A stretch of DNA of 64,000 bases from Terebella lapidaria. Lineage: Eukaryota; Annelida; Polychaeta; Terebellida; Terebellidae. Each line of letters opens with the position of its first letter. Positions within the stretch are counted from its first letter, which is position 1. This document shows positions 20,101 through 63,583 of this stretch, in pieces. The stretch is from contig OX424564.1 of NCBI GenBank assembly GCA_949152475.1, positions 37,632,165 through 37,696,164 on the forward strand, given 5' to 3'. A program made the position numbers and the translations under genes. The notes beneath the pieces are model-generated. The model ran no database searches. It saw only the letters and a program-made list of their open reading frames with translations, and had not been told where the DNA came from.

Positions 20101-23100
20101 CTTCAGCGGACATCCTCACAACAGATGAACATTTTCCGCCTGCAGCTGGCCAATGCTGGGGATGTGGAGGTCGTTCTCTGTCGCCATGGAGAACCTCTTG
20201 TCCTCACCCGCAAGTTTGTCACTGAGGAGGACCTCACAGAGTGCGAGCGTATCCACGAATCTGATGGCATTGTCACAGAGGTAAACTTCAGCTGTCACAA
20301 GCCTGATGTTTGAATATATTGGTTTTTCTTGTCAGTGACTTTCATTTTAATACCAAAAATGTTTAATCCTTTTCGTTAACAAAACAGGCCGTTGATTCAT
20401 TATGTGTTGACTTTTACAGGACAGTAAAGTGAATGGTGTGACTAAGAACACTAGGATGCTTGGGTGTGCATTCCTCTACCCCAACATCATCCCTTGCCCG
20501 TACACGGCTGAGCTTGCGCTCCGCAATGATGATGAGTTCCTGATCATCGGCAGTCGCGGCCTCTGGAAGTACATGTCGTATGGCCACGCTGTCGAGGAAA
20601 TCTACGATATTGGGAATCCCGTGGTGGCTGCCAAACGCCTTATGGACATTGCTCAAGCTTATGGATCTAAGGAGAGTGTATCGGTGCTCGTGATCAGACT
20701 CAACACTGACCGGGGTCCTTCCCTTGGGCGACTAAAACCCCCACCTCGTGATATGTCTATTGACGATGTCCATGCCGCAGAGCGACACGAAATGGCCATG
20801 CGAGCACAGAAGTTGGAACAGGGCATTGCTCGACGTGAGGCCATGAACAAGAAGACTGGCGGCTCACACAGACAGCCTCGTCAGCGAGAGAGCTTCGATC
20901 TGACAAACATGAGGATCCCATCCCAGTCAGATCAGGTTCTCTCTCCGAGGTTTGAGAACAACGGGAGCACAGACACGCTCACTGAGGAGTTCCCTCTACC
21001 TCCACCTCCTATCACTAACGGATTCCACAACACACCACATGGTGATGACAACACAGACTCACACTCACCTCACATGGACTTGTCTGGAGACCTTCCACCG
21101 CCCCCAGCACCGCATGTGTTAGCACCTCTGGCACCGCATGTGTCAGCACCTCCGGCACCACATGTGTCAGCACCTCCGACACCACATGTATCAGCACCTC
21201 CGGCACCGCATGTGTTAGCACCTCTGGCACCGCATGTGTCAGCACCTCCGGCACCACATGTGTCAGCACCTCCGACACCACATGTATCAGCACCTCCGGC
21301 ACCGCATGTGTTAGCACCTCCAGCACCACAACCACAGGTGCCTATACCACAGGCTCCAGTGCGACTCAAACGACTAGGCTCTAAGTCTGGTGATGACAAG
21401 GTCAAGGCCACTTCGAGCCAGTTACCGCAATCACAACAGTCAAGTAGAACCTCTGTGGTTCACAGCGTGAGCTCACACAGTGTCGTTCAAAGAAAGCCGT
21501 CCATGGAGCGGTCAGTCGTCTCAATCGCTGGAGACCCATCAGTGTCCTTGAATTCTGTGCTCTCTGGGTCCAGTCTGGAAGAACCGAGGGAAGGCTCTCC
21601 ATCCCCGACCCCAACCCCGGCTCCCAACACCGTCCCTGTCGACCCAAGCAAGGATATCAAACCTCTCCCCAACCAGCGCTTTGTCAAGAAGAGTGCAGCA
21701 CAGGAATGGGAGGTTTTGTTACAGAAACGCTTGTCATCTGAGATCAAGGATAGAGAACTCGAGCAGCTGACGGGAGGCGGTGAAGTGGATGATGCTGAAC
21801 TTGAATCTCTTCTGAACTGTACCAAGCAGGTGGACAGTGATATGGTTGTGTTGGATACAATGGGCAAAGGTCAGTCGCGCAGTAGATCTCAAGGGGATAA
21901 ATTTGGTTCAGTTACTTCTCAGACATTTGTAGCCTCAGTTATGGATGGAGACAGCACGCCAACAAACAGTGTCCGTCGCAAGAAACCAGCAAATGTTCGC
22001 AGTCGGATAGCAATGTTCGAGACCATTCAGCAGGATGCCCAACCAGCGAAGCCCGACCAGCGAAGAAGAACATTTTTCTCACCAGCCCGCACTGAGCCAC
22101 GGAAGCCTGTTAGTGGTGCTTGGAGATCCCTTTCTCCACCACCCAACATTGGGCTTGTTGCTGACAGCCAGAAATCTTCGCCAAGCAGCATAGTTGCCAT
22201 GAAAACAGCTTCCCAGAAACCTGAAGCACCCACAACGCAGGCCTCAAGAGCCTCTCGGCCTACTGACCAGGGAAAATCGGGGTCGTCAAGGGATCAGAGG
22301 GCCCAGGCAGTAGTCAGTCGACCTCATAGCACGGGGCCCTCCATATACAGACGACATCTCCCAACTGAGCATGGGACCTCCCAGCCTCCAGGGTCCAGTG
22401 CTGCACCTGCCCAGCGTAATGTACAGGCTGCCAGTAAACCTGCAAACCAGCCTTTGGTACGACCTTCTGCCCATCCGATAGTCAGGCCATCACCTCAGCA
22501 TTTAAATAGACCACCAAATCAGACAACAGTTCGGCCTCAACAGTCTTCTGTTCGATCTCCAACACAGCCTGCATTTAGCCCGCCGAGTATCAGAACTGTT
22601 AGACCACAAAACAAGCAACCACCACAAAACCAGCCAACAGCTCAACCTTCTAATCGCCCAAGACTTAACATCCCCTACCAAGCTGTCGTTCAACCTGCAA
22701 ACAAATCAAAAGGTCACTCAGGTAACCCCAGTGTCAGTTCTCAGAGTTCACCTGGGAAGCAAGACTCTCCACGACAATTGCCCCAGGCCCCCCAAAACAA
22801 GAAAACCCCTCCAAGCAGCCCCAGCTGTCTCCCAGTGACTCCGCCAACAGGCAAGGCCCCCCCACTCCCTCCCCCCGGACACCAGGCATCACCACACCCG
22901 CTAGGGATACAGAAACCCTCAAGTCCTAACTCAGCCAATGCTGCGACTTCTGCACAGCAAGGAAAGAAAACTACAAGTCATTCACAGACCACAAACCGTC
23001 AACAGAGCGGCATGATTCCACCCCCAACACAGAAAGCTACCAGTGCTTCACATGGATCGGCACAGAAAATCTCAAGCCCCGCAGGCCCGCTCCGGGCACC

Positions 23101-23311
23101 CAACCAGACCTCACCTGCGGCCTCAACTCAGAGGTCCCAGGCCTTCCACGGCTCCGTGGAGAGCGACCTCTATGCCAAGGTCAAGCGTGTGCGACACGCG
23201 CCCTCAGGGGGTGGGGGCAGTGGTGTGGGGGGTGGGGTGAGCCCTCAGGGTCAGGCCAGTCTGACCGAGGAACCCTCAGAGCCACTCGTTGTGGAGATCT
23301 CACATCTGTAG
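11189..23311 (+). CDS. PHLPP: PHLPP, PH-domain leucine-rich-repeat protein phosphatase
   Basis: In other animals PHLPP dephosphorylates AKT, PKC and S6K and so restrains growth signalling. Sixteen exons join in phase: 11189-11243, 11587-12267, 12316-12504, 12722-12903, 13000-13175, 13345-13491, 13717-14232, 14348-14443, 17996-18154, 18312-18509, 18825-18987, 19128-19258, 19402-19557, 19650-19844, 20049-20280 and 20420-23311. The product is about 2055 aa. Domains in order are a Ser-rich N terminus; a Ras-association-like fold (FIRIYAPDMVNF..., about 145-245); a PH domain (AYLDIRKGGVLQNWIKR..., about 265-370); about 20 leucine-rich repeats (about 390-900); a PP2C-like phosphatase (LFGMFDGGHNDEVP, LANAGDVEVVLCRHGEP, RMLGCAFLYP, about 925-1190); and a very long Pro/Ser/Gln-rich tail. 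The tail ends in ISHL, which fits a class I PDZ ligand. The start is the least certain part: exon 1 could be replaced by the ATG at 11589. The exon 3 boundary was chosen by phase. Two usual metal-ligand motifs of PP2C are altered (see findings). Confidence 0.93.
14990..16835 (+). repeat. 132-bp satellite array inside the Helentron-like element
   Basis: About 14 tandem units, period 131-132 bp. Each contains CTAGTTAAGTCTATTATTG, AATAAAAATAGTTAAGACG, TTTATTATTGGGCTCAAC, and a GGTAAAGGTTTTGTCCAG block. One unit near 15190-15225 carries an internal duplication of about 32 bp. Positions of the CTAGTTAAG mark give the spacing: 15338, 15470, 15601, 15733, 15865, and so on. About three to four units of the same repeat occur at 56285-56730 in the second copy. 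Confidence 0.9.
16870..17310 (+). repeat. Second tandem repeat (about 120 bp) in the same element
   Basis: Three to four units carry a GATCTGGCTCCAATTTTGTC block, ATCTTGAAATGCAGTTTTGG and TTGAATTTCAACTTGAAACC, spaced about 120 bp apart. The same repeats occur reversed at about 55860-56285 in the second copy of the element. Confidence 0.85.
21107..21322 (+). repeat. Coding minisatellite, 9 x 24 bp, in the PHLPP tail
   Basis: Nine in-frame 24-bp units encode eight-residue repeats of the form APHVSAPP, with variants APHVLAPL and TPHVSAPP. A block of four units is itself duplicated (variant order L-S-S-T, then L-S-S-T again, then L). The repeats sit in the Pro-rich linker just after the phosphatase domain, within the last exon. 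Length polymorphism in eight-residue steps is expected between alleles. Confidence 0.9.
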
Positions 23312-43526: not shown

Positions 43527-46500
43527 TTACATCGGTTGAGAGCAAGATTTTTTTCCTGTCGTTCTGAATGCCCACCGTGATCTGGAGCGTTCCTCCTGTT
43601 TGTCGAGCAGTCGGGTTTCTGTCTGGAGCAGTTCCCGTCGCACTCGATCCAATCTCGTATTGTCGTGGGCCTGTTCCGCATCCTCCATTTTTGTGCGTAA
43701 ATCGTCAGACTTCTCCCGCAGCTCCTGAATGGATGTGTAAATGTCGCCTTCCTCCTCCTGTCACAACAAGGACAAGATGTCAGCAAACAGGTGGATAAAT
43801 TTCCAAAGGAAGGGAGGGTTGACTGCAATTGTTGTTACAGTGAATATTCATTGGCAATAGAGCGCAGCCCATACTTTTTTTTACCTGAGCTCACGATAAT
43901 GCTCATACTTTCAAGGACACCACCTGTACTTACAATGCCACCCATACTTACGACACCACTTGTACTTACAATGCCACCCATACTTACGACACCACTTGTA
44001 CTTACAAAGCCACCCATACTTACGACACCACCTGTACTTACAATGCCACCCATACTTACGACACCACCTGTACTTACAATGCCACCCATACTTACGACAC
44101 CACTTGTACTTACAATGCCACCCATACTTACGACACCACCTGTACTTACAATGCCACCCATACTTACGACACCACCTGTACTTACAATGCCACCCATACT
44201 TACGACACCACTTGTACTTACAATGCCACCCATACTTATGACACCACCTGTACTCACAATGCCACCCATACTTATGACACCACTTGTACTTACAAAGCCA
44301 CCCATACTTAGGTTGCCACTTGTACTTACAATGCCACCCATACTTATGACACTACCTGTACTTACAATGCCACCCATACTTACGACACCACCCATACTTA
44401 CAATGCCACCCATACTTACGACACCACTTGTACTTACAATGCCACCCATACTTACGACACCACTTGTACTTACAATGCCACCCATACTTACGACACCACT
44501 TGTACTTACAAAGCCACCCATACTTACGACACCACCTGTACTTACAATGCCACCCATACTTATGATGCCACCTGTACTTACAATGCCACCCATACTTATG
44601 ACACCACCTGTACTTACAATGCCACCCATACTTAGGTTGCCACTTGTACTTACAATGCCACCCATACTTAGGTTGCCACTTGTACTTACAATGCCACCCA
44701 TACTTACGACACCACCTGTACTTACAATGCCACCCATACTTATGACACCACCTGTACTTACAATGCCACCCATACTTACGACACCACCCATACTTACAAT
44801 GCCACCCATACTTAAGACACCACTTGTACTTACAAAGCCACCCATACTTACGATGCCACCTGTACTTACAATGCCACCCATACTTACGACACCACCTGTA
44901 CTTACAATGCCACCCATACTTACGACACCACCTGTACTTACAATGCCACCCATACTTAGGTTGCCACTTGTACTTACAATGCCACCCATACTTAGGTTGC
45001 CACTTGTACTTACAATGCCACCCATACTTACGACACCACCTGTACTTACAATGCCACCCATACTTAGGTTGCCACTTGTACTTACAATGCCACCCATACT
45101 TACGACACCACCTGTACTTACAATGGGGTTGTTGAGTGAGATGAAGACGAGAAGGGACGCCAGTTCAAGGTCTTCGCTGTATCCATTTTGGAGCTGCACG
45201 GAGCGGAATCCCTGACGTACACAGCTGATTGGGAAAGTCGCGTGACCCAGGAAGTTGGCCTCACTGAACATATCCTCATCATAGAGAACGAACCGCAGCG
45301 ACGCCACCTGGGGGTTGATAATGTCAAACTCACACTGCTCGTTCCACACTGGGTTGAACCCGTTGTCCGCTGTCAGAGAAAATATACTTTCAATCAACAA
45401 CAGAAAATGTTCATGATGATAATATATACATATGACAAAAGCTATTCCGAATGCTATCCATCAAACACAGCGAGTTTTCCGTACATTTTGGTCCGGTTTT
45501 GTACTTGTTGTGGCTGTCATAATCTGCGCCAATGACTTCCACTTCCACAAAAGGACATGTGATCCCTCGGCCTGATTTGTTCAAATGACGAGCCCCGATG
45601 ATCTGTATGAAAACATTGGCAGGGCTTCAGGTAAAGTTCAAAGTAACTCGGTGTAGGAGACAACTCCACAGTACAAATTGTGCCTTGGTATTGAGGTGCA
45701 AGTCGAGTACCGTGAGATGTACGCTGAGTGGCTGAACGTCCTGTAGAGTTTCTCGCTGAAAAGCGCTGTACTTTGGGTGGCGCACACACTCCGGTTGTAA
45801 AATGTACCCACATCGGCCATTCCTTCGGAAAAATCCCTGGTTGAGCTGCATCGCTCGGTCTGTAACAAGCGTAACAATTCCAATCTGTATAACATTGAGG
45901 TGGATCTGCATTCAACCTACTTCACAAAACCCCAATCACTGGTCAGAAACAAACTTATTTATGCAGACACAAGGCCTATTGACGTAATGCCACACGAACC
46001 TGATGTCTGGAAGTTGAGGGCAGCCATGTGCACATTACAATTCCACATGACCATGGGATCGTAGTTAGCGGAGTCGATACGCGAAGCCTTAGGGTACACG
46101 CGACTGAGCTTCGTGCTGTTGAAGTCCAGCAGTGTCCGTGTTTGTTTCCTCTTCATCCAGACGTCCACCTTCGTCTCCGGGAATGAACACATCTCGTAGA
46201 AATTTTTGGGGTCAGCTACCGAAAGCAAACAGTGGGATTGTGTCACAGTCAATACAGTCAAGTGCATGTCCACAATACCACATAGTATGCTTGTGAATTC
46301 ATGTATACAACAAACTTTGTACATAGAGTTACCAAGTCACTTACCTCTCTCAAAGGGAACTGGCCGGCAGTAAACACTAATGTCTGACAATTCTTTGGCA
46401 ATATTTCGTTTCCTTTCTTCTTTCTTTTGCCCTCGTGCCTGCAAAATGGATATATTAATATTATTCATTAAAGTAAACGCAGTGTATGCATAACAACACT

Positions 46501-49500
46501 AGTCTTGTTCTTCCAGTCATCGTTACATTATTGGTTACCATGGTTACTTACACAGATATGAACATTGCTAGCCGTTACCATGGTAACTTACACAGATCTC
46601 GGCATTGCTAGCCATTACCACGGTTACTTACACATATCTCAGTATTGCTAGCCATTACCACGGTTACTTACACAGATCTCAGCATTGCTAGTCATTACCA
46701 TGGTTACTTACACATATCTTAGTATTGCTAGCCATTACCATGGTTACTTACACAGATCTCAGCATTGCTAGCCATTACCACAGTTACTTACACAGATCTC
46801 AGCACTGCTAGCCATTACCATGGTTACTTACACAGATCTCAGCACTGCTAGCAGTTACCATGGTTACTTACACAGATCTCAGCATTGCTACCCATTACCA
46901 TGGTTACTCACACATATCTCAGTATTGCTAGCCGGTACCATGGTTACTCACACAGATCTCAGCACTGCTAGTCATTACCAAGGTTATTTACACAGATCTC
47001 AGTATTGCTAGCCGGTACCATGGTTACTTACACAGATCTCAGCATTGCTAGCCATTACCATGGTTACTTACACAGATCTCAGCATTGCTACCCATTACCA
47101 TGGTTACTTACACAGATCTCTGCATTGCTACCCATTACCAAGGTTACTCACACAGATCTCAGTATTGCTAGCCGGTACCATGGTTACTTACACAGATCTC
47201 AGCATTGCTACCCATTACCATGGTTACTCACACATATCTCAGTATTGCTAGCCGGTACCATGGTTACTCACACAGATCTCAGCACTGCTAGTCATTACCA
47301 AGGTTATTTACACAGATCTCAGTATTGCTAGCCGGTGCCATGGTTACTTACACAGATCTCAGCATTGCTAGCCATTACCATGGTTACTTACACAGATCTC
47401 AGTATTGCTAGCCGGTACCATGGTTACTTACACAGATCTCAGCATTGCTACCCATTACCATGGTTACTCACACATATCTCAGTATTGCTAGCCGGTACCA
47501 TGGTTACTCACACAGATCTCAGCACTGCTAGTCATTACCAAGGTTATTTACACAGATCTCAGCATTGCTAGTCATTACCATGGTTACTTACACATATCTT
47601 AGTATTGCTAGCCATTACCATGGTTACTTACACAGATCTCAGCATTGCTACCCACTACCAAGGTTACTCACACAGATCTCAGCATTGCTACCCATTACCA
47701 TGGTTACTTACACAGATCTCAGCATTGCTAGCCATTACCAAGGTTACTCACACAGATCTCAGTATTGCTAGCCGGTACCATGGTTACTCACACAGCTCTC
47801 AGTATTGCTAGCCGGTACCATGGTTACTTACACAGATCTCAGCATTGCTACCCATTACCATGGTTACTTACACATATCTTAGTATTGCTAGCCATTACCA
47901 TGGTTACTTACACAGATTTCAGTATTGCTAGTCATTACCAAGGTTACTTACACAGATCTCAGTATTGCTAGCCGGTACCATGGTTACTTACACAGATCTC
48001 AGCATTGCTAGCCATTACCAAGGTTACTTACACAGATCTCAGTATTGCTAGCCGGTACCATGGATACTTACACAGATCTCAGCATTGCTAGCCGGTACCA
48101 TGGTTACTTACACAGATCTCAGCATTGCTAGCCATTACCATGGTTACTCACACATATCTCAGCATTGCTAGCCATTACCAAGGTTACTTACACAGATCTC
48201 AGTATTGCTAGCCGGTACCATGGTTACTTACACAGATCTCAGCATTGCTACCCATTACCATGGTTACTCACACATATCTCAGCATTGCTAGCCATTACCA
48301 AGGTTACTTACACAGATCTCAGTATTGCTAGCCGGTACCATGGTTACATACACAGATCTCAGCATTGCTACCCATTACCATGGTTACTCACACATATCTC
48401 AGCATTGCTAGCCATTACCAAGGTTACTTACACAGATCTCAGTATTGCTAGCCGGTACCATGGTTACTCACACAGATCTCAGCATTGCTAGCTGGTACCA
48501 TGGTTACTTACACAGATCTCAGCATTGCTAGCCATTACCAAGGTTACTTACACAGATCTCAGTATTGCTAGCCGGTACCATGGTTACTTACACAGATCTC
48601 AGCATTGCTACCCATTACCATGGTTACTCACACATATCTCAGCATTGCTAGCCATTACCAAGGTTACTTACACAGATCTCAGTATTGCTAGCCGGTACCA
48701 TGGTTACTTACACAGATCTCAGCATTGCTACCCATTACCATGGTTACTCACACATATCTCAGCATTGCTAGCCATTACCAAGGTTACTTACACAGATCTC
48801 AGTATTGCTAGCCGGTACCATGGTTACTCACACAGATCTCAGCATTGCTAGCCATTACCAAGGTTATTTACACAGATCTCAGCATTGCTAGTCATTACCA
48901 TGGTTACTTACACAGATCTCAGTATTGCTAGCTGGTACCATGGTTACTTACACAGATCTCAGCATTGCTAGCTATTACCAAGGTTACTCACACAGATCTC
49001 AGTATTGCTAGCTGGTACCATGGTTACTTACACAGATCTCAGCATTGCTACCCATTACCATGGTTACTTACACAGCTCTCAGTATTGCTAGCCGGTACCA
49101 TGGTTACTTACACAGATCTCAGCATTGCTACCCATTACCATGGTTACTTACACAGCTCTCAGTATTGCTAGCCGGTACCATGGTTACTTACACAGATCTC
49201 AGCATTGCTACCCATTACCATGGTTACTTACACAGCTCTCAGTATTGCTAGCCATTACCAAGGTTACTTACACAGATCTCAGCATTGCTAGCTGGTACCA
49301 TGGTTACTTACACAGATCTCAGCATTGCTAGCCGGTACCATGGTTACTTACACAGATCTCAGCATTGCTAGCTGGTACCATGGTTACTTACACAGATCTC
49401 AGTATTGCTAGCCGGTACCATGGTTACTTACACAGATCTCAGTATTGCTAGCTGGTACCAAGGTTACTTACACAGATCTCAGCATTGCTACCCATTACCA

Positions 49501-52500
49501 TGGTTACTCACACATATCTCAGTATTGCTAGCTGGTACCATGGTTACTTACACAGATCTCAGTATTGCTAGCCGGTACCATGGTTACTTACACAGATCTC
49601 AGCATTGCTAGCTGGTACCATGGTTACTTACACAGATCTCAGTATTGCTAGCCGGTACCATGGTTACTTACACAGATCTCAGCATTGCTAGCCGGTACCA
49701 TGGTTACTTACACAGATCTCAGCATTGCTACCCATTACCATGGTTACTCACACATATCTCAGTATTGCTAGCTGGTACCATGGTTACTTACACAGATCTC
49801 AGTATTGCTAGCCGGTACCATGGTTACTTACACAGATCTCAGCATTGCTAGCTGGTACCATGGTTACTTACACAGATCTCAGTATTGCTAGCCGGTACCA
49901 TGGTTACTTACACAGATCTCAGCATTGCTAGCTGGTACCATGGTTACTTACACAGATCTCAGCATTGCTAGCTGGTACCATGGTTACTTACACAGATCTC
50001 AGTATTGCTAGCCGGTACCATGGTTACTTACACAGATCTCAGCATTGCTAGCCATTACCAAGGTTACTCACACAGATCTCAGTATTGCTAGCCGGTACCA
50101 TGGTTACTTACACAGATCTCAGCATTGCTAGCCATTACCATGGTTACTTACACAGATCTCAGCCTTGATACCCATTACCATGGTTACTTACACATATCTC
50201 AGTATTGCTAGCCATTACCATGGTTACGTACACAGGTCTCAGCATTGCTAGCAGTTACCATGGCTAGTCAGATTTTAGCATTGCTAGCCATTACCACAGT
50301 TACTTACACAGATCTCAGCATTGCTAGCTGTTACCATGGTTACTTACAGATATCTCAGCATTGCTAGCCATTACCATGGCTACTCAGATTTGAGCATTGC
50401 TAGTCATTATCATGGTTATGCAGATTTGAGCATTGTTAGCCATTACCATGGTTACAGATTTGAGCATTGTTAGCGGTAACCATGGTTACACAGATTTGAG
50501 CATTGTTAGCCGATACCATGGTTACTCACAGATTTGAGTATTTCTTTTATCTGTAATCCAAAATTGTCAACGGCACATCAATTATTTGTTTGGTGCGGGA
50601 CCGATCTCGGCAGTGAAATGTGATGGTTTTTTTTTTATTAGATGGCACCACAGATTTGTCGCAGTTGTTACTGTGAATTCAAATTTTATTCTTTATGTCA
50701 TTGAGGCTTCCCAGCGAAGTAAGTTTTGCTTTTCAGTAATGTGTATTCTGTTTCTGTAGCTTTCTGCCTAAACAGCATAGTTTTGAGTCTATATTTCCTC
50801 CGTCAAGTTTGTTTTTTGCAGTAAAGTTTTGGTGTACCGATTTATGACATGTACAGCGGTATTGGGTTGCACATCATTGACTGTCATTGGTTTTTCTTAA
50901 AATATGTTTTGACTAAATAATTTAGATTTGGGGTAGATTGCCAACTTCTTCAATTTTTGCAATAGAAGTTCGAAATTTGATAGAATATTGCTGTTTAATT
51001 CCCAGGTGGAGTATACCAAGGGATAGTTCGATACCATTCAGAAACGCAAAAACATTGTCAAAAACCGGTCTAAACAAGTTAGCAAATTCAGAGTATAGTC
51101 ACTACCATGGTTGCTCACACAGATTGGAGCATTTCTAGTTGTTACCATGGATACTCACAGAGATTTGAGCATTTCTAGTTGTTACCATGATAACACAGAT
51201 TTGAGCATTGCTAGCCATTACCATGATTACAGATATTTGAGTATTTCTATTTGTTACCATGGTTACTCACAGAGATTTGAGCATTTCTAGTCATTTCCAT
51301 GGTTACACAGATTTGAGCATTGCTAGCCGTTGCCATGGTTACAGATATTTGAGCATTGCTAGCCGTTACCATGGCTGCTCACAGATATTTGAGCATTTCT
51401 AGTTGTTACTATGGTTACTCACACAGATTTGAGCATTGCTAGTCGTTATTATGAATACTCACACAGATCAAACAGATTTGAGCCTTGCTAGTCATTACCC
51501 TGGTTACTCACAGAGATTTGAGCCATTTGAGCTGCCTCTCTGATCCGCCTCATCCAGTCGAGCATCTCTTCCTCAGTATCACAGGCAATCTCCATCTTAA
51601 CATTCATAGTATTTGTGACTCGGAATATGTACATTCGGTCTCCCCGACTTAACCGATCTGCAAAGTCAAACAACTCTTTATCCAGTCCGTTTATACGCCT
51701 TTCGGCAGGGTCTTACATACTTACATGGATAATATTAATAGTTAATTTGTAAGTCAGTCTCCAGTATGTTCATAAATTACCTTATACTCAACTGTCATTT
51801 GTTGGGGTGTAATACTGACCGACGACGACGTTGCGGATGTCCATGGAGCCTTTCTGCAGCGAGCCGAGGACCTGATCCGCCGTCTCCTCCTCAATCTCCT
51901 CAACGTGATTGGACGGGAACCACATCTGCTTCTTGCCGCCGTAGTCACCACGCCACCTAGTGGGGATTACACAGGACACATTATCGGATGAACCTTCCCA
52001 TGGATCAAACTTCTACACTGCAGCTAGACATAGTTGATATGTTCAATTCAAGGAATTCCATCGTGAACTCAATACCAATCGCTATCCTGATATCTTGAAG
52101 AATCCTAATTCCAAATGGGTGGACAATTTTGATTACCAATTTGATTTTGCATAAAATATAGAAGGGTGACCATCTTGTTTCATTACACTTCAGTGGATCA
52201 GTTTTCTGTTACCATTTGGATGGTAAAATATCAGATTTGTTCAATGCTGCAGACGATGTCACGATGTACAATGTACTGACCAGCCTCCATCCTGTTTCTG
52301 GACGTTTCGGATGATTGCATTTTTGGTGAAGGAAAGTTCATCTTCTCGTTGTTGTTTGTAGTCATACAGTGCCCGCACTTGGACCTACCAACAATTGAAT
52401 CAATATTATGTGACATGTTCAAACATGTTAGAATCACAAATCTTTTTATTTTATTGTACTTTAAAAGTTCATAGTTGTAGGTACGTAATAGCTGCCCAAT

Positions 52501-55500
52501 TCACGAACATCAATTGATAAATACAGTGGTCTCTGTAAGATAAGACCTCACCTTTTGCAGAGAAAATGAGGTCTTATCTTACAGGAAGTCTTATTTCACA
52601 GGTTCATTTACATGCTAAATTGATCTTTGGGGAATTCAAAAAAGTCACAGACAGGGAAGTCTTATTTCGGAGGTGTCTTATCTTACAGGGACCACTGTAC
52701 ACATGTACTAGTAGTTTTTCATAGAATACCAGCAGCATAATACCACACAGATAATGTCAGATGCAGCATTTATTCGTACTAACCCTGGACACGAAGTCAT
52801 TAGGGTTGGTGTAATCTGAGCCGAAGTAGATTGCTCCTGGGTCGGGGGCCTCGCCTGATTGGTCCACCAGTTGCTGGTTGACTGGGTACCGTAGCTTCAT
52901 CTTACGGTAAAGAGGACTCTTCTTGTAGTAGTCAACTAGCTCAATCAGACTCTCAAAGGACGCGTTACCAATCGTGTACAAACGACCCTCCAGCTTGATT
53001 CGACAGTGCTTGATTTTACCTTCAGCCCTGCAATAATACAATTAACTCATCAAGTTCACGTACAATTTCTGATGATAGTTCACATGTTCAAGTTTGGGTA
53101 ATACTAGTCTAGTCTAGAAACACGAAACAGTATTTGTAGCGACCTGAAGGAGATGGCGAACTGTGAGGGGTCGCTGTTATCGTGGTCCGTGGACACGTTG
53201 CGACCCCGAATCAGAAACGCTCCATCTCGCGGCACTCGACTCAACCAATCCTCAGCCTCGTCTCTCGTCATGTTCATGTGGAACCACCTGTAACCATGGA
53301 AACACGAGTACGATATAACCCTGAGTTCATGCTGTTAATATAATGACTGATACTCTTGTGTACATGCACAAAAATCTGCTAAGCTTGAGGTAGGAGTGTC
53401 ACTAACGGTTGTCCGATGTGGCCCTCAGGCTGCGGCACGGGTTCAATCAGAACCTGCTGGAAGTTTGCGGCCTTGAGTGGGAAATCTCGGTAGTGGCGGA
53501 TGAGGGAGTACAGGTTGTCGAACAGGCGGTTAGCGATCAAGTAATACTTGACTTGACCACCATCCTGCTTTGAGTGTATTCGACAGTGGTGAATTGTACC
53601 CTGGCGCCTGCAAAGTAACATACCAGTAAGCATGATATGACATCCAAGCTCCACACAAAGTTGTAACAATTATACACTTGAGACTACTCTCTTCTAGACG
53701 CGGCCATGTTACCATGGTTACTAACCAGAAGGACAGCGAGAAGTCCCCGACGAATGTGTCGCTGTCGCGGACGAGGAAGGTACCGTCGCCCATGTACGCG
53801 TAATCTCGTAGCAGCTCCTCGGCCTTGTCACGACCCCCCACGTGCTTTCCGTGGAACCACTTCTCGTCATAGTGCAGCTCAGCATTGCTCAGTTGCTATA
53901 AGCGTGGGCGAAAGTTTTCTCGGGACAGTTAGAGCTCGCCACTTTGATTACAACCATATACAAATTCATAGTAAAAATGCTGATAAAATTTGGCTCCTTC
54001 TTTGTTGTTCATCCCCTCATGTGCAATCCAACTACAAGCAGCTATAACCACATATACTACTCTTGCACACATTAGGATGGAGGTTCTGACCTCGTTGAAG
54101 TGATTTGTGTCGTCATCCTCGTCGTCGGCTGTGGGACTCTGTAGCGTCTCCTCTGTGTAGGACAGCTTGGTCGAGGTCAGCACAAAGTAGTGCGGCAACC
54201 ATTCCTACATGTATGAAACATCAGACATGGAACTTTGTGCTTACATACTTGTATCTAATTAACAACTTTATGAGCACCTAGAATCATAAAATTTTACATT
54301 ATACCAAACAGAATTGGAAGTTGTTGCTTAGAGCAAGTCAAGTGAAAGTTATACATGGTGTAATATTCCGAAAACTTTCATTGCAAATAGACGGGCAGCA
54401 GTAACAGGCTTACGTGGTCTATCGGGTCCTCCAGGTAGAGAATGCCGTTCTTGACGGAGTTACTCAAGTCAGTGTCCGTCTGATTGGCTGAAAATGACAA
54501 GAATATGTGATTTAATATCATAAATTTTTTTTCATATTGTTTCAAGGTTGGTGACATTTGTAACATTACTGACTGTCGAAGAGTTACCTTCGTCGTTGAC
54601 GGGTTCATTGAGTTGGTTCTCTGTAAGCTTTTTGTGCTGCAGAAACAAAATTCATTATTTTACAGCATGAAATAGGCCGAAAATATTCAGGCCTGTTTTT
54701 AGAGTATGTAGATATCATACATAAATTTGGATATGTATTTTCAAACAAGTAACTGTAAACAGTAGTTAACCTTGATGATGATGCGTCCCTTGAGTTGATT
54801 GGGTGAGGGGAGCTGTGTCGCGTTCGGGTCTAGGTAGTCAGTGACGAGCATTTCCCGGAATATCTCACGGAATGCTGAGGCCATGGTTCGTTGCTGGGAT
54901 ATGCTGCAGTGGTTCTCAATCGAGAGGATGAGTGGATAGCTGCGGCAAGGGACGAACAGACAGACATGAGCGCAACAGGGTGGATAGCAGGTCAGTTAAG
55001 TACACAACAATTATTTGTCTCAGAAGTTTTCTGATATTTTTCATATTCTGATATTGTTAGATTTACTTTGCACAACAGCTCATAGTGCTTATACATACAT
55101 ACGTAGTAAATGTTGTGTTAGATTGCATATGTGTAGAAATAGTGAAGAAAGCAGAGTTTTTAAGAGTACAAGCGTGACTTACTCAGAAGCAACCCAAGCA
55201 TGCTCTTTGATAACTTTGAGGACATCAAGGAAGCGTATCTTGGAAGTTAGAGTGTGGCCGTGGTATATGTGTGGTGAGCCATCCGGACCGTCCCAGCAGT
55301 CCACTGGGGGTGGGGGTGGGGGGGGGGAAGGGTGGGGGGGGGGGCAGGTGGTGAGGGCACAAGGGTAGGTTTGTTAGGTTTATCATACACACAGATACAC
55401 ATAAATCTATAAGCGAAGGTCCACGGTTATATACGATAGATGGTACATGCTGAAAAGTGAATACATGCTGAAAAGTTGAATACTATTAGTATCCAGAACA

Positions 55501-58500
55501 TGCCCTCCTGTAAGTTGTAGCATACATTCCATAGATATCAGTATTACATATGCAGGTAGCACTGTACTGCAATGTTAGATGCATTAGATTACGTGTACCT
55601 CACAGTCATGAAAGTACATTCATGTCATAATCATCAGTTCCTGGCCCTGTATCGTGCCGTGGGCCCAAGCATGGGGACAGGTTCCTGATTACGGGTTACC
55701 TACCCTTCAACGTTTCTGAACGATTTTCCATTTTTTGTTGTTGATAAAACTAGACGCTTCCGGTCGCCTACGACCGCTTGGGTGTATCCCCCGTAGCCCT
55801 ATCATCCCTGTTGCCCCAAATATATCGCTGATGTACATTGTGAGTGTGAAACCTTTCAGACACTTTTGAAGGTCGAATTCAAGATCACCACTAAAATCAC
55901 TGCATTCGCAACTTGGTTCGCAACTAAGTTGCGAGATGACTAAATTGGAGCCAGATCGAACTTTTCACTGTAAGTTATATTTCAACTCATACTTTGCGCC
56001 AAACAACTCATACTATGTTCCAAGTTGAAGTTCAAAGTAAAAGTTGACCGAAACTACATTTCAAGATGACGAAATTGGAGCCAGATCAACTTTTCACCAT
56101 AATTTAAATTTTAATTCATAATATGTGCCAAACTTGGTTTCAAGCTGAAATTCAAGTAAAAGTTTACCAAAACTGCATTTCAAGATGATGAAATTGGAGC
56201 CAGATCGATCTTTTCACCATAAATTATATTTTAATTCATAATATGTGCCAAACTTGGTTCCAAGTTGAAATTCGAAGTAAAAATTGACTTTACTGGTAAA
56301 AATAATGTTAACTTATCCGGTTACACCAATGAAATCTCTACTGGACAAAACTTTTAAATTGTTGAGTTCAATAATAAATGTTCCTTGTCTTAACTATTTT
56401 TCTTGAGGTCAATAATAGACTTAACTAGTAAAACTGATGTTAACTTATTCGGCTACAGCCATGAAATCTCTACTGCACAGAAGCTTTACCTTGTTGAGCC
56501 CAATAATAAATGTTTCTTGTCTTAACTATTTTTATTGTGGCCAATAATAGACTTAACTAGTAAAAATAATGTTAACTTATTCGGTTACACCTGTGAAGTC
56601 TCTACTGGACAAAACCTTTACCTTGTTGAGCTCAATAATAAATGTTTCTCGTCTTAACTATTTTTATTGTGGTCAATAATAGACTTAACTATTAAAACCA
56701 ATGTTAACTTATTCAGTAATATTGTTCTTTTTTCACCAAAAACATCAGTTCTGTATTCTGAACAAGAATCCAGTGCAATTTGCTTTCATAGTACAGGTTA
56801 TTGGAGTGATCACACATGTCAAAGTAGGTATTTTAATTGTCGTAATAAGTTAACCTCTCAAACTTATTAATATTTATTTGATCATTCTGAAAAACAATAG
56901 GTTTCGTGTGATGGTCTTTCTCATTGAGCCTGTGCGATTTCATCATCATTCATTGAAAACTCCCACCCGTAGAGCGTTCACAACCCATGTGTGTTAAACA
57001 GGCTCATTTGAGCACAAAATGTTACGCCAATCGGCTATTTTGGTTGCTATGGCAACCAAAATCGATAGGTGTCCAGATCTCACCATAAGACATGTCCATA
57101 TAAAATATTATCAAAATCGGTTCATATTTGCAACCTGCAGCGCGTTCACAAGAAAGTGTCTGCGGACGCGGACGCGGACGCGGACGCGGCGGCGGCGGCG
57201 GCGGCGGCGGCGCGACGATCGTAAATCCATAGTATCCGCCGAACTTTGTTCGGGGGATACAATGAATGTACAAGTTCAGTTCAGTTCAGTATGTGTTTTT
57301 CTTCTTCATCAGAAATAGCACTTGAAATTGAAGGGCGAGTCTCCCAGTAACCATAGTAACAGAAAACATCATTCACACAGATAAACTTCAGAGCATGCTG
57401 ACAAATGTTCTCCCGATTACTAGAAATACGAAGAAAAGCAGAAAGTTAACAGCCAATAACTGAAAGTTAGCAAAGACAAGGAAATTAGTAGGTTGTCATG
57501 ATGACTAAGGGACTTACTCAGACACGACAAAGGCGTTTTCACAAATACATTTGATGACATCGATGAAGGAGATTTTTGAGCACATGGTGTGTCCATGGGT
57601 GATGATCGGTTTGTCCGGCCCATCCCAACAATCCACTGAAAGTATGCAACAAATGCTCGCTAATAACAAATGCGGACGTTCCTATCTTTATTCGAAATTC
57701 CCAAGCCATCACCATGCCCAGGAATACATGCACGTTGCTGTGTGAGAATTGCATCATAACTGCTCCATGACCGATAAGTGTCTTTTCATCATGCAAGATA
57801 CTTATATTCAATTAGCTGTGCTGCCAAAATTAAACTGCTCTCTAGCTGAAAATGCCCGAATACCAGAGATCATTTGAGCCGTAACCTCGAAGCAAGTGGC
57901 ACCGGTACTCACATTCTATACAGCGACAGCCCCAGCGCAGCACCCGAGCGTACGCCTCAACGGTGGACTCACTCAGAAACTGGTCCCCGGTCAGGTATCT
58001 GAACGATAGCAACAGACATATTACATGGATAAAGTCCATACATTAGCTGAAGTTCTGGCAAAACAAATTATTTACCGCTGTTGAGAATGAATTTTGGAAC
58101 TAAATGAGATAAGGAGTTACTGCTTGCCATGCGAAGGGGAATAACAAGCGTTACTACGGTAACGTTATACACTGACGTGTTGTGTGAGGATGATATCCAG
58201 TAGTTACAGATGGGCTGGTCCATATCCATGGTAACAGCATCGTGTGCCTCATCCCAAATACTGTTGTGTTTGGAGAATAGATAGGACAGGAACTGTGGGC
58301 ATCAGAACAAATTCCTGTTATCATAGTGATATCAACTTGGAACTGTCAAAGTAATCTCCAAAATGCAGATTACAAATCCTGATATAACGTACCTCCTGAG
58401 GTGAGAAGTAGACACCCATTGCCTCACGACACCTGTCCTCCAGGAACGAACACATGTGTCGCTTGACCCAGCCCCTGTCCACAGCATTCGGCTCCTGTCA

Positions 58501-61500
58501 GGAGAGTAAGATAGACATGAGTGCTCGTAAAAGAAAGATGGTGTAGCATGGAAAAGTTCCTGTTATGATCGGTTGACGGGTTTGGCAGGCAGTGAAAGTT
58601 TGTGCTCACCTTCTGGACAAGCTGTAGAAATTGCTGGAAGTTTTCTAGCCCAAGTTTTGACCTGGAAATAAATGCATATACTAGCCGAGTGCCTTATGAT
58701 GGATACATTATAATGGGTATCTGACTTGGTTTTGTATCTGAGTTATATACTAGTATCATGAGTATTATGAGTTATGTCATGACTTCATGAAAAGTATTTG
58801 GATTCCAGGTACACCTACTTGTCTGCAGTCAGAAAGAATGGCACAAAATGTTTGTCAAACACATCCTTGGAGAAGACAAGGCTCTCATAGAGTTCCCTGA
58901 ATGTCTCAAAATTAATCTCACTTGCGTTGCCAGAAACGTCCTGCAACACAATAAAGGACAAAATTGTAAAAAAAAAGTTGACACTTTTATCTTCATACAG
59001 ATACCAAACATATTCAATTTCAAAACTGTGAAATCAACAAAACCTACCTGGAATTTTTCCCTCAGACTATTCGTTGATATTTTGAAATTCACTTTTGGTA
59101 GCCATGATTTTACATCTCGCATGCTTATCCTGAAAGAAATAACATTCCAGGAGTGCAATGTTTTGTTTTTGGAAAATGTTTGATGAAACGCACTGGTAAC
59201 TAGAATGGTTCTACTGACACATTCGTGGACCGAGAGTCGAGGTTATAGAACTCCTTCCGCAGCCATCTCTCCACTTGCAGAGTGTAAGACGCGGATTTCA
59301 GCTCGTTTATCAGGTACGACAGTCCCATGATCCAACGCTCATATTCGATATCATTCGGCGCTGCAATAAGCATGATAAACAAATGGTATTGGGTCAGACA
59401 ACACAAAAAGTTGTTACATCTAAGCAACAAAGTGTTCTAAGTTACGATTGGCACAAAAATAATAGTAACTTTGCAGTCCACATATAGGTAGGTGGCATAT
59501 GAGAGGAAATGTTTTAGTTTTACAGAACTTTCTGTACACTCACCAGCCAGGGACATGGTTTTCAGTCGGAACTCTGATCCATGGAATATGACGAAGCAGA
59601 CTTCACTTCCGCACTTGCGGGACTCTGCGTCTTCGCGCCACCGATCGAACTCCTTCGAACTCTTCCCCGGACGTATCTCTCGCACCTCCCTCAGGTCCAC
59701 TGTAATCATGGCAACAAATAGACATAGACTTACTGACATCTAGCTCATTGCAAGAGTTTCGAACAAGTACATATACTTTCATGATATTTAATAACACGAT
59801 GGATTTACTCAACTATTAAATTTTCCTTTGCAACATGTTATGTTGTTGTTAGTTTGCCAAATAACAAGTTGAATGAGATCATACACAACACAGTAATACT
59901 GGTGTTTTGTTTGGTGCCATAGTGTTTATTATACATGTTTTAGAGGCAATGGCATATTCAATATTCATTGGAACAGACAAAACTGTTCCAAATAAGTATA
60001 TACACTCTATTTAACTGTTTGCAATTGATATTTTCATCTATATGATTGTCATGTGCAGAAAAAAAATATCGCAATAACTTACAACAATAGAAGTTTCTCA
60101 ATTTTTGTCATGATCAATTGAGATTTATTGTACTATGTTATTTTCTAATTTATTTGATACAAAGAATATGCATGTTCTCCATGTTCTTTATCTACCCCTT
60201 CCTATTTCTAAGGAATTGATATTCTATACAAAGATTTCTACATGCAGCCAAAAAGCTGCATCATTGAGCAGAATCATCAAAGGAGGATCCACTATCATTT
60301 TATGATTCCGAACATGGTGGAACACATAAACTATTCATCAGGTTTATTGCCCAGCAGCTGTATAGTACTAGTATATTGCTGTATTGTTCAGTAGTTGAAC
60401 ACATATCTTCCTAATCAATTATCATTGATACCAGGAAGTCGAAAACCTAACCGACATGGCAGAATTAATAAAGCATGTTTAATGACATGTTTGTTGACTG
60501 CACCAGGAAACGTCACTATGATCTACAGTTTAAACAGCTGATATTTCATTTATATCTGTACATGTATATTTCACTGATAACATTGACTATTGCCTTGATA
60601 GGTAATCGTAATCATCAAGTTATTATATCTTGTTGATTTAGCTGCCCAATGGGTTACAGTTGAATTACTACAAGATTGGATACTAGTCTACTACCGGTAG
60701 ATAGTATAGTTCTAGCGGAATGAGACACTCATTATAATGTAAAACATCTGTGACTATATGATATTGAAAACATGAAGCAATATCGAAACAAACATTATGA
60801 CAAATCTGACAGTATGAACATGAACTCATTTGTACCTTTCCTTTTATTAAGCTCCCCGTAAAATTCTGTGCAAAATTATTCCCCTTGAAATAAAATTAAT
60901 CGATATTCATAGGACATGGTCGGTGCTGACCAGTAAGGCGACTAAAATTTGCCAGCTATACTGGCTTTGTATGCATGGAAGGTTTTCCCAGAAGAGGGCA
61001 TTAAATGCAATGCAGGTCTTTACCGACAGACTTCAATGAATTTGCAATTGGCGTAGGTACCCCATTATGTAACAGCTCCCTCCCCCCTCCCAAAATTCCT
61101 GCACACGCCCTTGCCTCGTACATACCTGCATCATGTTGTACATCCTTGCACCCCCCCACCCCAGTACATGTTGTACATCCTTGCACCCCCCACCCCAGTA
61201 CATGTTGTACATCCTTGCACCCCCCCACCCCAGTACATGTTGTACATCCTTGCACCCCCCCACCCCAGTACATGTTGTACATCCTTGCACCCCCCCACCC
61301 CAGTACATGTTGTACATCCTTGCACCCCCCCACCCCAGTACATGTTGTACATCCTTGCACCCCCCACCCCAGTACATGTTGTACATCCTTGCACCCCCCC
61401 ACCCCAGTACATGTTGTACATCCTTGCACCCTCCACCCCAGTACATGTTGTACATACCTGCGTCCTGTTGTACATCCTTGCACCCCCCCACCCTAGTACA

Positions 61501-63583
61501 TGTTGTACATACCTGCGTCATGTTGTACATCCTTGCACCCCCCCACCCCAGTACATGTTGTACATACCTGCGTCCTGTTGTACATCCTTGCACCCCCCCA
61601 CCCTAGTACATGTTGTACATACCTGCGTCATGTTGTACATCCTTGCACCCCCCCACCCCAGTACATGTTGTACATACCTGCGTCCTGTTGTACATCCTTG
61701 CACCCCCCCACCCTAGTACATGTTGTACATACCTGCGTCATGTTGTACATCCTTGCACCCCCCACCCCAGTACATGTTGTACATACCTGCGTCATGTTGT
61801 ACATCCTTGCACCCCCCCACCCCAGTACATGTTGTACATACCTGCGTCCTGTTGTATATCCTTGCACCCCCCCACCTCAGTACATGTTGTACATACCTGC
61901 GTCATGTTGTACATCCTTGCACCCCCCACCCCAGTACATGTTGTACATACCTGTGTCCTGTTGTACATCCTTGCACCCCCCCACCTCAGTACATGTTGTA
62001 CATACCTGCGTCATGTTGTACATCCTTGCACCCCCCCACCTCAGTACATGTTGTACATACCTGCGTCATGTTGTACATCCTTGCACCCCCCACCCCAGTA
62101 CATGTTGTACATACCTGCGTCATGTTGTACATCCTTGCACCCCCCACCCCAGTACATGTTGTACATACCTGTGTCCTGTTGTACATCCTTGCACCCCCCC
62201 ACCCCAGTACATATTGTACATACCTGCGTCCTGTTGTACATCCTTGCACCCCCCCACCCTAGTACATGTTGTACATACCTGCGTCATGTTGTACATCCTT
62301 GCACCCCCCCACCCCAGTACATGTTGTACATACCTGTGTCCTGTTGTACATCCTTGCACCCCCCCACCTCAGTACATGTTGTACATACCTGCGTCATGTT
62401 GTACATCCTTGCACCCCCCACCCCAGTACATGTTGTACATACCTGTGTCCTGTTGTACATCCTTGCACCCCCCCACCCCAGTACATATTGTACATACCTG
62501 CGTCCTGTTGTACATCCTTGCACCCCCCCACCCTAGTACATGTTGTACATACCTGCGTCATGTTGTACATCCTTGCACCCCCCCACCCCAGTACATGTTG
62601 TACATACCTGCGTCCTGTTGTACATCCTTGCACCCCCCCACCCTAGTACATGTTGTACATACCTGCGTCATGTTGTACATCCTTGCACCCCCCCACCCCA
62701 GTACATGTTGTACATACCTGCGTCCTGTTGTACATCCTTGCACCCCCCCACCCTAGTACATGTTGTACATACCTGCGTCATGTTGTACATCCTTGCACCC
62801 CCCCACCCCAGTACATGTTGTACATACCTGCGTCCTGTTGTACATCCTTGCACCCCCCCACCCTAGTACATGTTGTACATACCTGCGTCATGTTGTACAT
62901 CGTTGCACCCCCCCACCCCAGTACATGTTGTACATACCTGTGTCCTGTTGTACATCCTTGCACCCCCCCACCCTAGTACATGTTGTACATACCTGCGTCA
63001 TGTTGTACATCCTTGCACAACCCCCCACCCCAGTACATGTTGTACATACCTGTGTCCTGTTGTACATCCTTGCACCCCCCCACCCTAGTACATGTTGTAC
63101 ATACCTGCGTCATGTTGTACATCCTTGCACAACCCCCCAGCCCAGTACATGTTGTACATACCTGTGTCATGTTGTGCATCCTTGCACCCCCCACCCCAGT
63201 ATATGTTGTACATACCTGCGTCATGTTGTACATCCTTGCACCCCCCCACCTCAGTACATGTTGTACATACCTGCGTCATGTTGTACATCCTTGCCCCCCC
63301 CCCACCCTAGTACATGTTGTACATCCTTGCACCCCCCACCCCAGTACATGTTGTACATACCTGCGCCCTCGGGTCTGCCTCCAATGTTGCGGCTCCAGAC
63401 GATCTGGCGGGTTTCCAGTTTGACGGAGTACATTCTGTTCTCAGGTCGCCGTTTGATGTAGAAGCGTTTGAAGCAGCTGCCGGCCTGGAGCGCCAGCAGA
63501 ATCTCTGCCATTCGGCCCTCATGGCTCGTCGGGCTGTTGTCGTAGCCGTTAGTCGGCCCGTTAGCGGTCGCCATCATTGCCAT
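43527..63583 (-). CDS. PLCG1: Phospholipase C-gamma (PLCG1/PLCG2 orthologue)
   Basis: PLC-gamma hydrolyses PIP2 to IP3 and diacylglycerol downstream of tyrosine kinases. Minus-strand exons join in phase: 63583-63361, 59699-59544, 59360-59219, 59129-59048, 58940-58819, 58661-58610, 58494-58393, 58292-58177, 57998-57913, [57635-57518 or 55303-55183], 54939-54771, 54636-54588, 54487-54414, 54204-54091, 53895-53726, 53607-53407, 53287-53144, 53027-52784, 52384-52281, 51956-51820, 51711-51512, 46438-46345, 46215-46000, 45859-45711, 45602-45485, 45369-45122 and 43757-43527. They give about 1287 aa (human PLCG1, 1290). Domains are PH (about 25-150); EF-hand region; X box with [16 protein letters not shown] and HGHT; half a split PH; N-SH2 ([18 protein letters not shown], about 549); C-SH2 (WFHMNM..FLIRGRN, about 661); SH3 ([24 protein letters not shown], about 790-850); the other PH half; Y box ([26 protein letters not shown], about 955-1065); C2 (about 1085-1210); and a charged helical tail. 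The start is the first ATG of a run (MAMMAT). Three introns begin with large minisatellites. Confidence 0.95.
43915..45121 (-). repeat. Intronic minisatellite, about 33 x 36 bp (two 18-bp halves), made of splice donors
   Basis: Sits between the C2-domain exon (ends at 45122) and the last exon. On the gene's strand the unit is GTAAGTACAGGTGGTGTC plus GTAAGTATGGGTGGCATT, so each 18-bp half starts with a consensus donor. Variants (AGTGGCAACC, GTCATAAGT) remove some of them. By eye about fifty GTAAGT copies remain. The first copy is the real donor (CCCATT|GTAAGTAC), and the unit ends GGCATT|GTAAGTAC. The frame of the upstream exon stays open through the whole array, reading [12 protein letters not shown] hexapeptides. 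Confidence 0.95.
46530..50530 (-). repeat. Intronic minisatellite, about 100 x 40 bp
   Basis: A very regular 40-bp unit, on the gene's strand GAGATCTGTGTAAGTAACC followed by ATGGTAATGGCTAGCAATGCT. Each unit carries GTAAGT or GTGAGT. Degenerate copies continue at 50530-50525 and again at 51090-51511, up to the donor of the exon ending at 51512, whose junction AAATCTCT|GTGAGTAACC aligns with the unit. A non-repetitive stretch (about 50540-51085) interrupts. Unit subtypes (TACC versus TACCAAGG, GCCGG versus GCCATT) are mixed along the array, suggesting higher-order shuffling. Confidence 0.95.
51512..51711 (-). CDS. PLCG1: PLC-gamma exon encoding the second half of the split PH domain
   Basis: Encodes [19 protein letters not shown], then YIFRVTN, and ends [15 protein letters not shown]. 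This matches the C-terminal half of the split PH domain, where vertebrates have a LFVFSIS...DWVKKIREVAQ pattern. It is followed by the donor at 51511/51510, which seeds the 40-bp array. The acceptor before it lacks a pyrimidine tract (see findings). Confidence 0.85.
52524..52697. mobile_element. TA-flanked MITE, 174 bp (Tc1/mariner-pogo style)
   Basis: Ends CAGTGGTCTCTGTAAGATAA and the complement of CAGTGGTCCCTGTAAGATAA form 23-bp-class terminal inverted repeats, flanked by TA on both sides (52522-52523 and 52698-52699). The interior carries related sub-repeats of GTCTTAT. It lies in the PLC-gamma intron between the C-SH2 and SH3 exons. No ORF. Confidence 0.85.
55183..55303 (-). CDS. PLCG1: PLC-gamma X-box exon, version B (canonical-like)
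   Basis: A 121-nt exon (phase 1 in, phase 2 out). It reads (L)[18 protein letters not shown]..., then [19 protein letters not shown]. It contains the Asp of the E-LD calcium-ligand motif and the second catalytic His (HGHT). It has the same length and near-identical spacing to the vertebrate PLC-gamma exon. The acceptor is preceded by an almost pure C tract (+ strand G run, 55306-55343) ending CCCCCAG, and the donor is TCTGA|GTAAGT. It competes with version A at 57518-57635. Confidence 0.93.
55750..57257 (-). mobile_element. Helitron/Helentron-like element, copy 2
   Basis: A shorter copy (1508 bp), reversed relative to copy 1 at 14494-17934. It has the same right end (hairpin CGGTCG-TAGG-CGACCG, then GAAGCGTCTAG), the same left end (TCCCCCGAACAAAGTTCGGC), the same approximately 120-bp and 132-bp tandem repeats in lower copy number, and an expanded GCC/GGC microsatellite near 57165-57213. 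The flanking T after CTAG is preserved. It is inserted in the intron between the two alternative X-box exons of PLC-gamma. Confidence 0.8.
57518..57635 (-). CDS. PLCG1: PLC-gamma X-box exon, version A (divergent duplicate)
   Basis: A 118-nt exon, phase 1 in and phase 2 out like version B. It reads (L)[17 protein letters not shown]..., then [19 protein letters not shown]. It keeps the LD calcium-ligand motif and the catalytic HGHT, and is one codon shorter than B. The [14 protein letters not shown] wording recalls the PLC-beta X box more than PLC-gamma. The acceptor is TTTCAG|TGG and the donor is TCTGA|GTAAGT, both good. Splicing in A and B together would shift the frame and reach a TGA inside B; leaving out both would also shift the frame. 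Confidence 0.93.
59700..61129. other. PLC-gamma intron 1, non-repetitive part
   Basis: AT-rich intron DNA between the second PLC-gamma exon and the 61.1-63.4 kb array. No exon or element was recognised. Confidence 0.45.
61130..63360 (-). repeat. Intronic minisatellite, 37-bp and 55-bp units, starting at the exon 1 donor
   Basis: On the gene's strand the 55-bp unit reads GACGCAGGTATGTACAAC, ATGTACTGGGGTGGGGGG, TGCAAGGATGTACAACAG. About 34 such units occupy 61440-63360, often alternating two subtypes (110-bp higher-order period). The far end (61130-61440) has about eight shorter 37-bp units without the donor-like part. The array's first bases are the donor of PLC-gamma exon 1 (GGCGCAG|GTATGTACAAC at 63361/63360), so each 55-bp unit repeats this junction with one or two changes. 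Confidence 0.95.

Follow-up and report, generated by a model that had tools for sequence, protein, structure and literature searches.

The PLC-gamma locus of Terebella lapidaria

A stretch of 64 kb from the polychaete Terebella lapidaria (assembly GCA_949152475.1, contig OX424564.1, positions 37,632,165 to 37,696,164), here called the window, carries on its minus strand a PLC-gamma gene in which one exon of the catalytic X box is present in two different versions, exon A and exon B, that are very probably used as mutually exclusive alternatives. The exons of this strand were assembled by eye into a gene model, which is approximate away from the X box, and the comparison of this model with Pfam spells out PLCG EF-hands, the X half, two SH2 domains, an SH3 domain, half of a PH domain, the Y half and a C2 domain. 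The families found are PF00388, PF00017 (in two stretches), PF00018, PF00387, PF00168, PF23583 and PF23329, and the PH family PF00169 matches one stretch only of the approximate model, the half after SH3. This is the layout of PLC-gamma, with SH2-SH2-SH3 and PH material between the X and Y halves, and by domain content the gene is identified as a PLC-gamma, as had been proposed in a first-pass annotation made from the letters of the DNA. The first exon, with an ATG at 63583 by our reading, carries what we take to be the start of a PH domain. The features of the gene that concern the exon pair are the following; positions are those of the window, (-) is the minus strand and a slash marks an exon border.

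45125..63583 (-): body of the PLC-gamma gene, from the first-exon ATG at 63583 (our reading) to the C2 exon ending near 45125
57913..57998 (-): upstream exon common to both versions (YLTGDQF...RCIE), donor ATAGAAT/gtgagt at 57913
57636..57912 (-): intron before exon A, 277 nucleotides (nt)
57518..57635 (-): exon A, 118 nt, entered in phase 1 and left in phase 2; codes for the X-box stretch LDCW...HGHT and the helix that follows, in a derived and partly beta-like form
55304..57517 (-): intron separating A from B, 2214 nt; contains tandem repeats (56017-56714) and a GCG-rich repeat (57162-57217)
55304..55350 (-): C-run polypyrimidine tract before B; pyrimidine 0.90 and U 0.05 over 21 bases
55183..55303 (-): exon B, 121 nt, entered in phase 1 and left in phase 2; codes for the canonical PLC-gamma version
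54940..55182 (-): intron after B, 243 nt
54771..54939 (-): downstream exon common to both versions (...GRIIIK), acceptor gccgcag/CTATCC at 54939

Anatomy and frame logic of the exon pair

Exons A and B are homologous and adjoin each other between the same two neighbours, which are presumably constitutive. Both have intact GT-AG sites, as predicted from the sequence, with GTAAGT donors: exon A lies between the acceptor ...catactttcag/TGGATT and the donor GTCTGA/gtaagt, and exon B between ...cccccag/TGGACT and TTCTGA/gtaagt. The donor of the downstream exon is read by us as AAG/gttaac at 54771, and the tandem repeats of the intron between A and B form two arrays, with periods of 120 and 132.

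The lengths of 118 and 121 nt are each a multiple of three plus one, and therefore exactly one of the two exons is needed for a full protein. In fact, the frame stays open into the downstream exon with A alone or with B alone; when A is joined to B a TGA is found inside B, when both are skipped the frame shifts to a stop, and when the intron after A or after B is retained an immediate SE-stop follows. The first-pass annotation had described two versions of the same X-box stretch with good splice sites and equal phases, together with the TGA in B and the frame shift, and all of this was confirmed, as regards coordinates, splice dinucleotides, phases, translations and both stops. It had also placed the calcium-ligand Asp and the catalytic His in both exons: Asp367, which we take to be the calcium ligand, and His380 are indeed present in both by alignment. 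On these features the anatomy of A and B reads, with good support, as that of a mutually exclusive exon pair.

Homology of A and B and past selection on both

Within the window, A and B find each other by tblastn at an expect value (E) of about 9e-14, and tblastn of each exon gives no credible third copy in these 64 kb, the next best match having E 0.022 or worse. A wider protein search with exon A was made in the species' own genome (one assembly, 761.6 Mb, 438 contigs), in which only the best candidates were scored; apart from its own locus, A matches B best (45.8 bits, E 3.6e-9, 66%). The eight matches listed are A, B, five PLC paralogs (41.2 to 23.5 bits) and a weak one on C2 (E 0.42), with no further A-type exon among them, and no credible second copy of the exon was found beside the five paralog exons, where the extra matches are weak (E 0.03 or worse). 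At the DNA level, the only long match between the A and B regions covers the exon (131 nt at 65%, E 0.003); a duplication reaching beyond the exon was considered and rejected, the five other matches, of 10-23 nt, looking like chance.

With A in place the protein scores 206.0 bits against Pfam PI-PLC-X, and with B in place 211.0. The two exons are identical at 25 of 38 aligned residues and differ at 44 of 114 aligned nucleotides (11, 9 and 24 by codon position). The proportion of differences is 0.90 at silent sites (pS) and 0.25 at replacement sites (pN), so that silent sites are saturated and the silent divergence (dS) is not computable; furthermore, a different codon is used at 17 of the 25 identical residues. 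In a neutral simulation, in which B was mutated to the same number of differences, 12.5 residues on average remained identical, none of the 20,000 runs reached 25, and 27% of the runs were without a stop. The retention of 25 identical residues in 38 despite saturated silent sites, together with these simulations, indicates that A and B parted long ago and were kept as PLC sequence. Long-term selection at the protein level on both exons, which is past selection only, is well supported by these counts.

Likeness to PLC-gamma and to PLC-beta

Judged by its sequence, B is the ordinary gamma form, with 31 of 39 residues identical to the PLC-gamma1 of solved structures, and A is a derived and faster copy: of the 30 sites with the same residue in gamma1 and gamma2, 8 are changed in A and 4 in B. 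Over 38 residues A has 25 identities with B, 24 with gamma1 of solved structures and 24 with each of the PLC-betas 3qr0 and 3qr1, which we take to be those of squid and cuttlefish (the rat and human labels of solved structures are likewise our assumption). With short flanks, A scores 57.8 bits to 3qr0 and 55.3 to gamma1, and B 46.5 and 76.6, respectively; the best match of A alone among solved structures is a PLC-beta. When the whole X part is taken with A in place, the best score is to gamma2 (224.4 bits, versus 153.0 for 3qr0).

The residues by which the two exons depart from gamma1 are of different kinds. At six of its 14 differences, A has a residue shared with at least one PLC-beta among four, which holds for none of the 8 differences of B; in a substitution simulation the mean was 1.9 (P 0.004), a test chosen after the motif had been seen, with four related betas pooled and with approximate residue frequencies. 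Four of these six residues are I377, T379, M384 and C385 (PLC-gamma1 numbering), the motif of A around the catalytic His is the beta-like THG.TMC, and 3qr0 and 3qr1 have PIITHG.TMC in common with exon A. Neither of two trees, which are weak (14 exon-length sequences, 50 columns), puts A inside gamma: FastTree joins it to beta (0.90), and IQ-TREE gives it an intermediate place, between a beta group with support 90 and the remaining sequences with 79, with a support of only 41 for B with gamma1. Taken together, these comparisons of sequence point to a drift of A towards beta that is real but local, around the catalytic His. Thus the earlier description of A as diverged and closer to PLC-beta stands for the residues near the His and fails for the exon as a whole, where identities with gamma1 and with beta are equal in number.

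Position in the enzyme and predicted effect

In the alignment to 9qb7, the exons correspond to PLC-gamma1 residues 367-405. Relative to B, exon A has changes at residues 375, 377, 379, 384, 385, 389, 391, 394, 396, 398, 400, 402 and 404, and it is without residue 374. The substitutions of A near the catalytic His380 are Tyr379 to Thr, Leu384 to Met and Thr385 to Cys, in a loop that is one residue shorter. Leu384 is presumably on the membrane-inserting ridge and would match Phe360 of PLC-delta1, an assignment for which our literature search gave no confirming paper.

As far as the available text of the sources goes, activity is suppressed when His380 is replaced by Ala or Phe (PMC12387771), the hydrophobic ridge is formed largely by the loops after strands beta2-beta2' and beta7 (PMC9203054), and in autoinhibited PLC-gamma1 this ridge is covered by the split PH domain (PMC7004563). 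The first-pass annotation had suggested that the isoforms could differ in calcium response, substrate handling or autoinhibition. We infer that the most likely effect of A would be a changed autoinhibition threshold or a changed membrane engagement rather than a loss of catalysis. A more specific picture, in which A gives PLC-gamma a PLC-beta-like lip with the ridge poorly seated under the split PH domain, hence higher basal, calcium-driven activity, and in which the additional cysteines 385, 396 and 398, within and close to the wall of the active site, may render the isoform redox-sensitive, is put forward tentatively and is in our judgement rather doubtful.

Splice signals and the probable control of the choice

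The splice-site comparison was made without the acceptor SH2c and the donors NV and ADK (3 of 25 coordinates). The acceptor tract of A has a pyrimidine fraction of 0.57, and the other acceptors of the gene, except that of B, range from 0.52 to 0.81. A CTAAC starts 74 nt upstream of the B acceptor. On the plus strand, 55304-55350 is a G-run that fits a G-quadruplex pattern and, as template, could slow the polymerase between A and B.

Two mechanical explanations of the exclusive choice were considered and set aside, namely steric exclusion, given that A and B lie 2,214 nt apart, and incompatibility between the major and the minor spliceosome, given that the donors are, by inspection, ordinary GTGAGT and GTAAGT. 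With the 2.2 kb spacing and the ordinary GT-AG sites, a choice controlled by factors and followed by loss of the wrong products through their stops is favoured. Pairing between introns gave no standout.

The proposed explanation and its alternatives

The best explanation, to which we give a probability of about 0.78, is that a single PLC-gamma exon was duplicated in tandem long ago, that its copies A and B now serve as mutually exclusive alternatives, and that A re-tunes the catalytic lip. Each transcript would take either A or B; messages with both exons or with neither would meet early stops and would be degraded or give a dead protein, and the choice would probably be made by splicing factors together with removal of the wrong products. 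The B form would be the standard tyrosine-kinase-coupled PLC-gamma, and the A form would combine an unchanged regulatory body with a catalytic lip that is re-tuned.

Several points weigh against this explanation. The acceptor tract of B, a U-poor C-run, is an outlier and may be weak in vivo, and so may the acceptor of A, within 110 nt of which no strict yUnAy branch motif is found; pairing between introns that would explain the exclusivity is not convincing (five comparisons, z -2.5 to 1.9, 60 mononucleotide shuffles each); past selection is no proof of present use; and L384 and H382 are not named as ridge residues in the available text of PMC7004563 and PMC9203054, respectively.

The first alternative is that A was formerly functional and is now unused, a fossil exon left intact by the recency of its loss. 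Its faster change at the sites where gamma1 and gamma2 agree and the lack of a strict branch motif before it would fit such a history. On the other side, the open frame, the GTAAGT donor, the acceptor and the catalytic His of A are all intact, its acceptor tract falls among the pyrimidine values of the remaining acceptors of the gene (that of B left aside), and the pair was under strong selection at the protein level in the past; a fossil exon seems unlikely.

A second alternative concerns the origin of A, which could be a captured PLC-beta exon or a product of gene conversion by a PLC-beta gene, and is best weighed against the PLC paralogs of the genome. A profile search finds at least 20 PI-PLC-X matches in at least seven groups of places, among which only the gene of the window was recognised as PLC-gamma; the class names used here for the paralogs (beta, epsilon, delta-type) are our reading of short stretches. 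One locus (C4, L010), with 38.2 bits, above the Pfam X cut-off, may be an X-domain gene of another kind and was left out of the exon comparison, a pattern scan having shown nothing like the exon there. In three paralogs (C12a, C12b and C1) the exon has the same start codon, end place and phases as A and B, with the donors gtaagt, gtgagt and the less typical gtcagt. The beta-like (C7, L013) and epsilon-like (C9, L014) genes instead have an intron inside the stretch, at FK/DV or FK/EV, where A has none, and A does not have the exon boundaries of the beta gene. As the boundaries are common to gamma and delta-type genes, the exon unit is taken to be old, and the most fitting view of A is that of its tandem duplicate. 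A further paralog (L009:2514-2636) has VDTW where the other paralogs compared have DCW in this exon.

For a beta origin speak the higher score of flanked A to 3qr0 than to gamma1, opposite to B, its enrichment in beta-type residues and its place in the trees, as well as a DNA comparison of six loci of the genome, in which A matches the beta-like gene best (E 2.6e-5, 77% over 48 nt). Against it stand the gamma/delta-type exon boundaries, B as the best match of A in the genome-wide protein search, the best score of the whole X part to gamma2 and the gamma-type HGHT..SKI kept in A, which sits in a gamma gene with SH2 and SH3 domains. Codons are shared with the beta-like gene at 12 of 23 identical residues, the highest value for A; taken over all 21 pairs, however, the values run from 5 of 20 to 13 of 22, so that this one is not exceptional and the codons give no support to recent gene conversion from beta. 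We consider an origin of A in a beta gene quite unlikely: a recent beta-to-A conversion is unlikely, A is probably not a captured beta exon, and convergence is favoured as the source of its beta-likeness, with an old partial conversion the less likely source.

It is very improbable that both exons are used and that the A form is truncated or non-productive, as would happen if A were joined to the acceptor at 57419 and ended in a short tail. This candidate acceptor, tttctag/TAATCGG, would continue the frame of A for 46 codons (57419-57281, DNRENICQ...HILN-stop), and the intron between A and B contains AATAAA words at 56878, 56668 and 56536, which may be there by chance. The selection seen on the catalytic sequence of A fits a full enzyme better, and the 46-codon tail gives no blastp match to the normal next exon, for which reason it was also rejected as a decayed copy of that exon. 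Finally, an assembly error or collapsed alleles, which repeats in the intron between A and B might suggest, are scarcely credible with 44 of 114 nucleotides different and silent sites saturated, far beyond allelic difference, and with proper splice sites flanking A and B, each in its own intron.

Other features of the gene and of the window

Beyond the C2 exon, one more exon may belong to the gene:

43757-43590 (-): coiled-coil-like exon, possible gene tail, covered by no Pfam match

A short-unit array open in several frames (43838-45164) lies directly after the C2 exon and is probably an intronic repeat, and an early intron of the PLC-gamma gene contains a large tandem array (61001-63461) with repetitive open frames on both strands. 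Elsewhere in the window, on the plus strand, the open frames at 11562-23311 encode leucine-rich repeats and a long tail rich in proline and serine, and look like a PHLPP-type phosphatase gene.

Known systems and meaning of the finding

By analogy, the A/B pair belongs to a known class, that of enzymes whose core is exchanged through tandemly duplicated exons, of which COQ-2 is an example. According to the available text of PMC7434440, COQ-2 exons 6a and 6e are mutually exclusive in helminths, annelids and molluscs, and the choice between them decides whether ubiquinone or rhodoquinone is synthesized. Like A and B, they are two tandem homologous exons that swap an enzyme core; unlike them, they are equal in length (134 nt) and are backed by RNA evidence and an exon-removal experiment, whereas A and B differ in length by one codon and are known from sequence alone. 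An alternative exon pair in a PLC gene is also that of Drosophila norpA (our literature search gave no confirming paper), in a region N-terminal to the X box and in another PLC class, PLC-beta. Vertebrate PLC-gamma1 and PLC-gamma2 have the same domain order, and the B version is like theirs; a review of mammalian PLCs names splice variants of beta, delta and epsilon (PMC12195575) and, in its available text, mentions no alternative form of this exon, which does not settle the matter for every variant. No report of a mutually exclusive exon in the X box of PLC-gamma was found among the matches listed in our literature search, which is weak evidence of absence since most subscription journals lie outside that search.

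Changes of the ridge that make PLC-gamma1 hyperactive are described in the available text of PMC12387771, namely the somatic hotspot Ser345Phe and the germline case Asp1019Gly, and because of them a natural, selected variant near that surface would be informative. An exon swap in the wall of the active site, with the catalytic residues kept, would be a natural experiment on the catalytic lip of PLC, on its autoinhibition and on its use of membranes. If A indeed gives a beta-like lip and an unseated ridge, the gain of receptor-kinase signalling would be set by splicing, within the very core of the enzyme. The pair is also a likely further example of an enzyme core switched by mutually exclusive exons.

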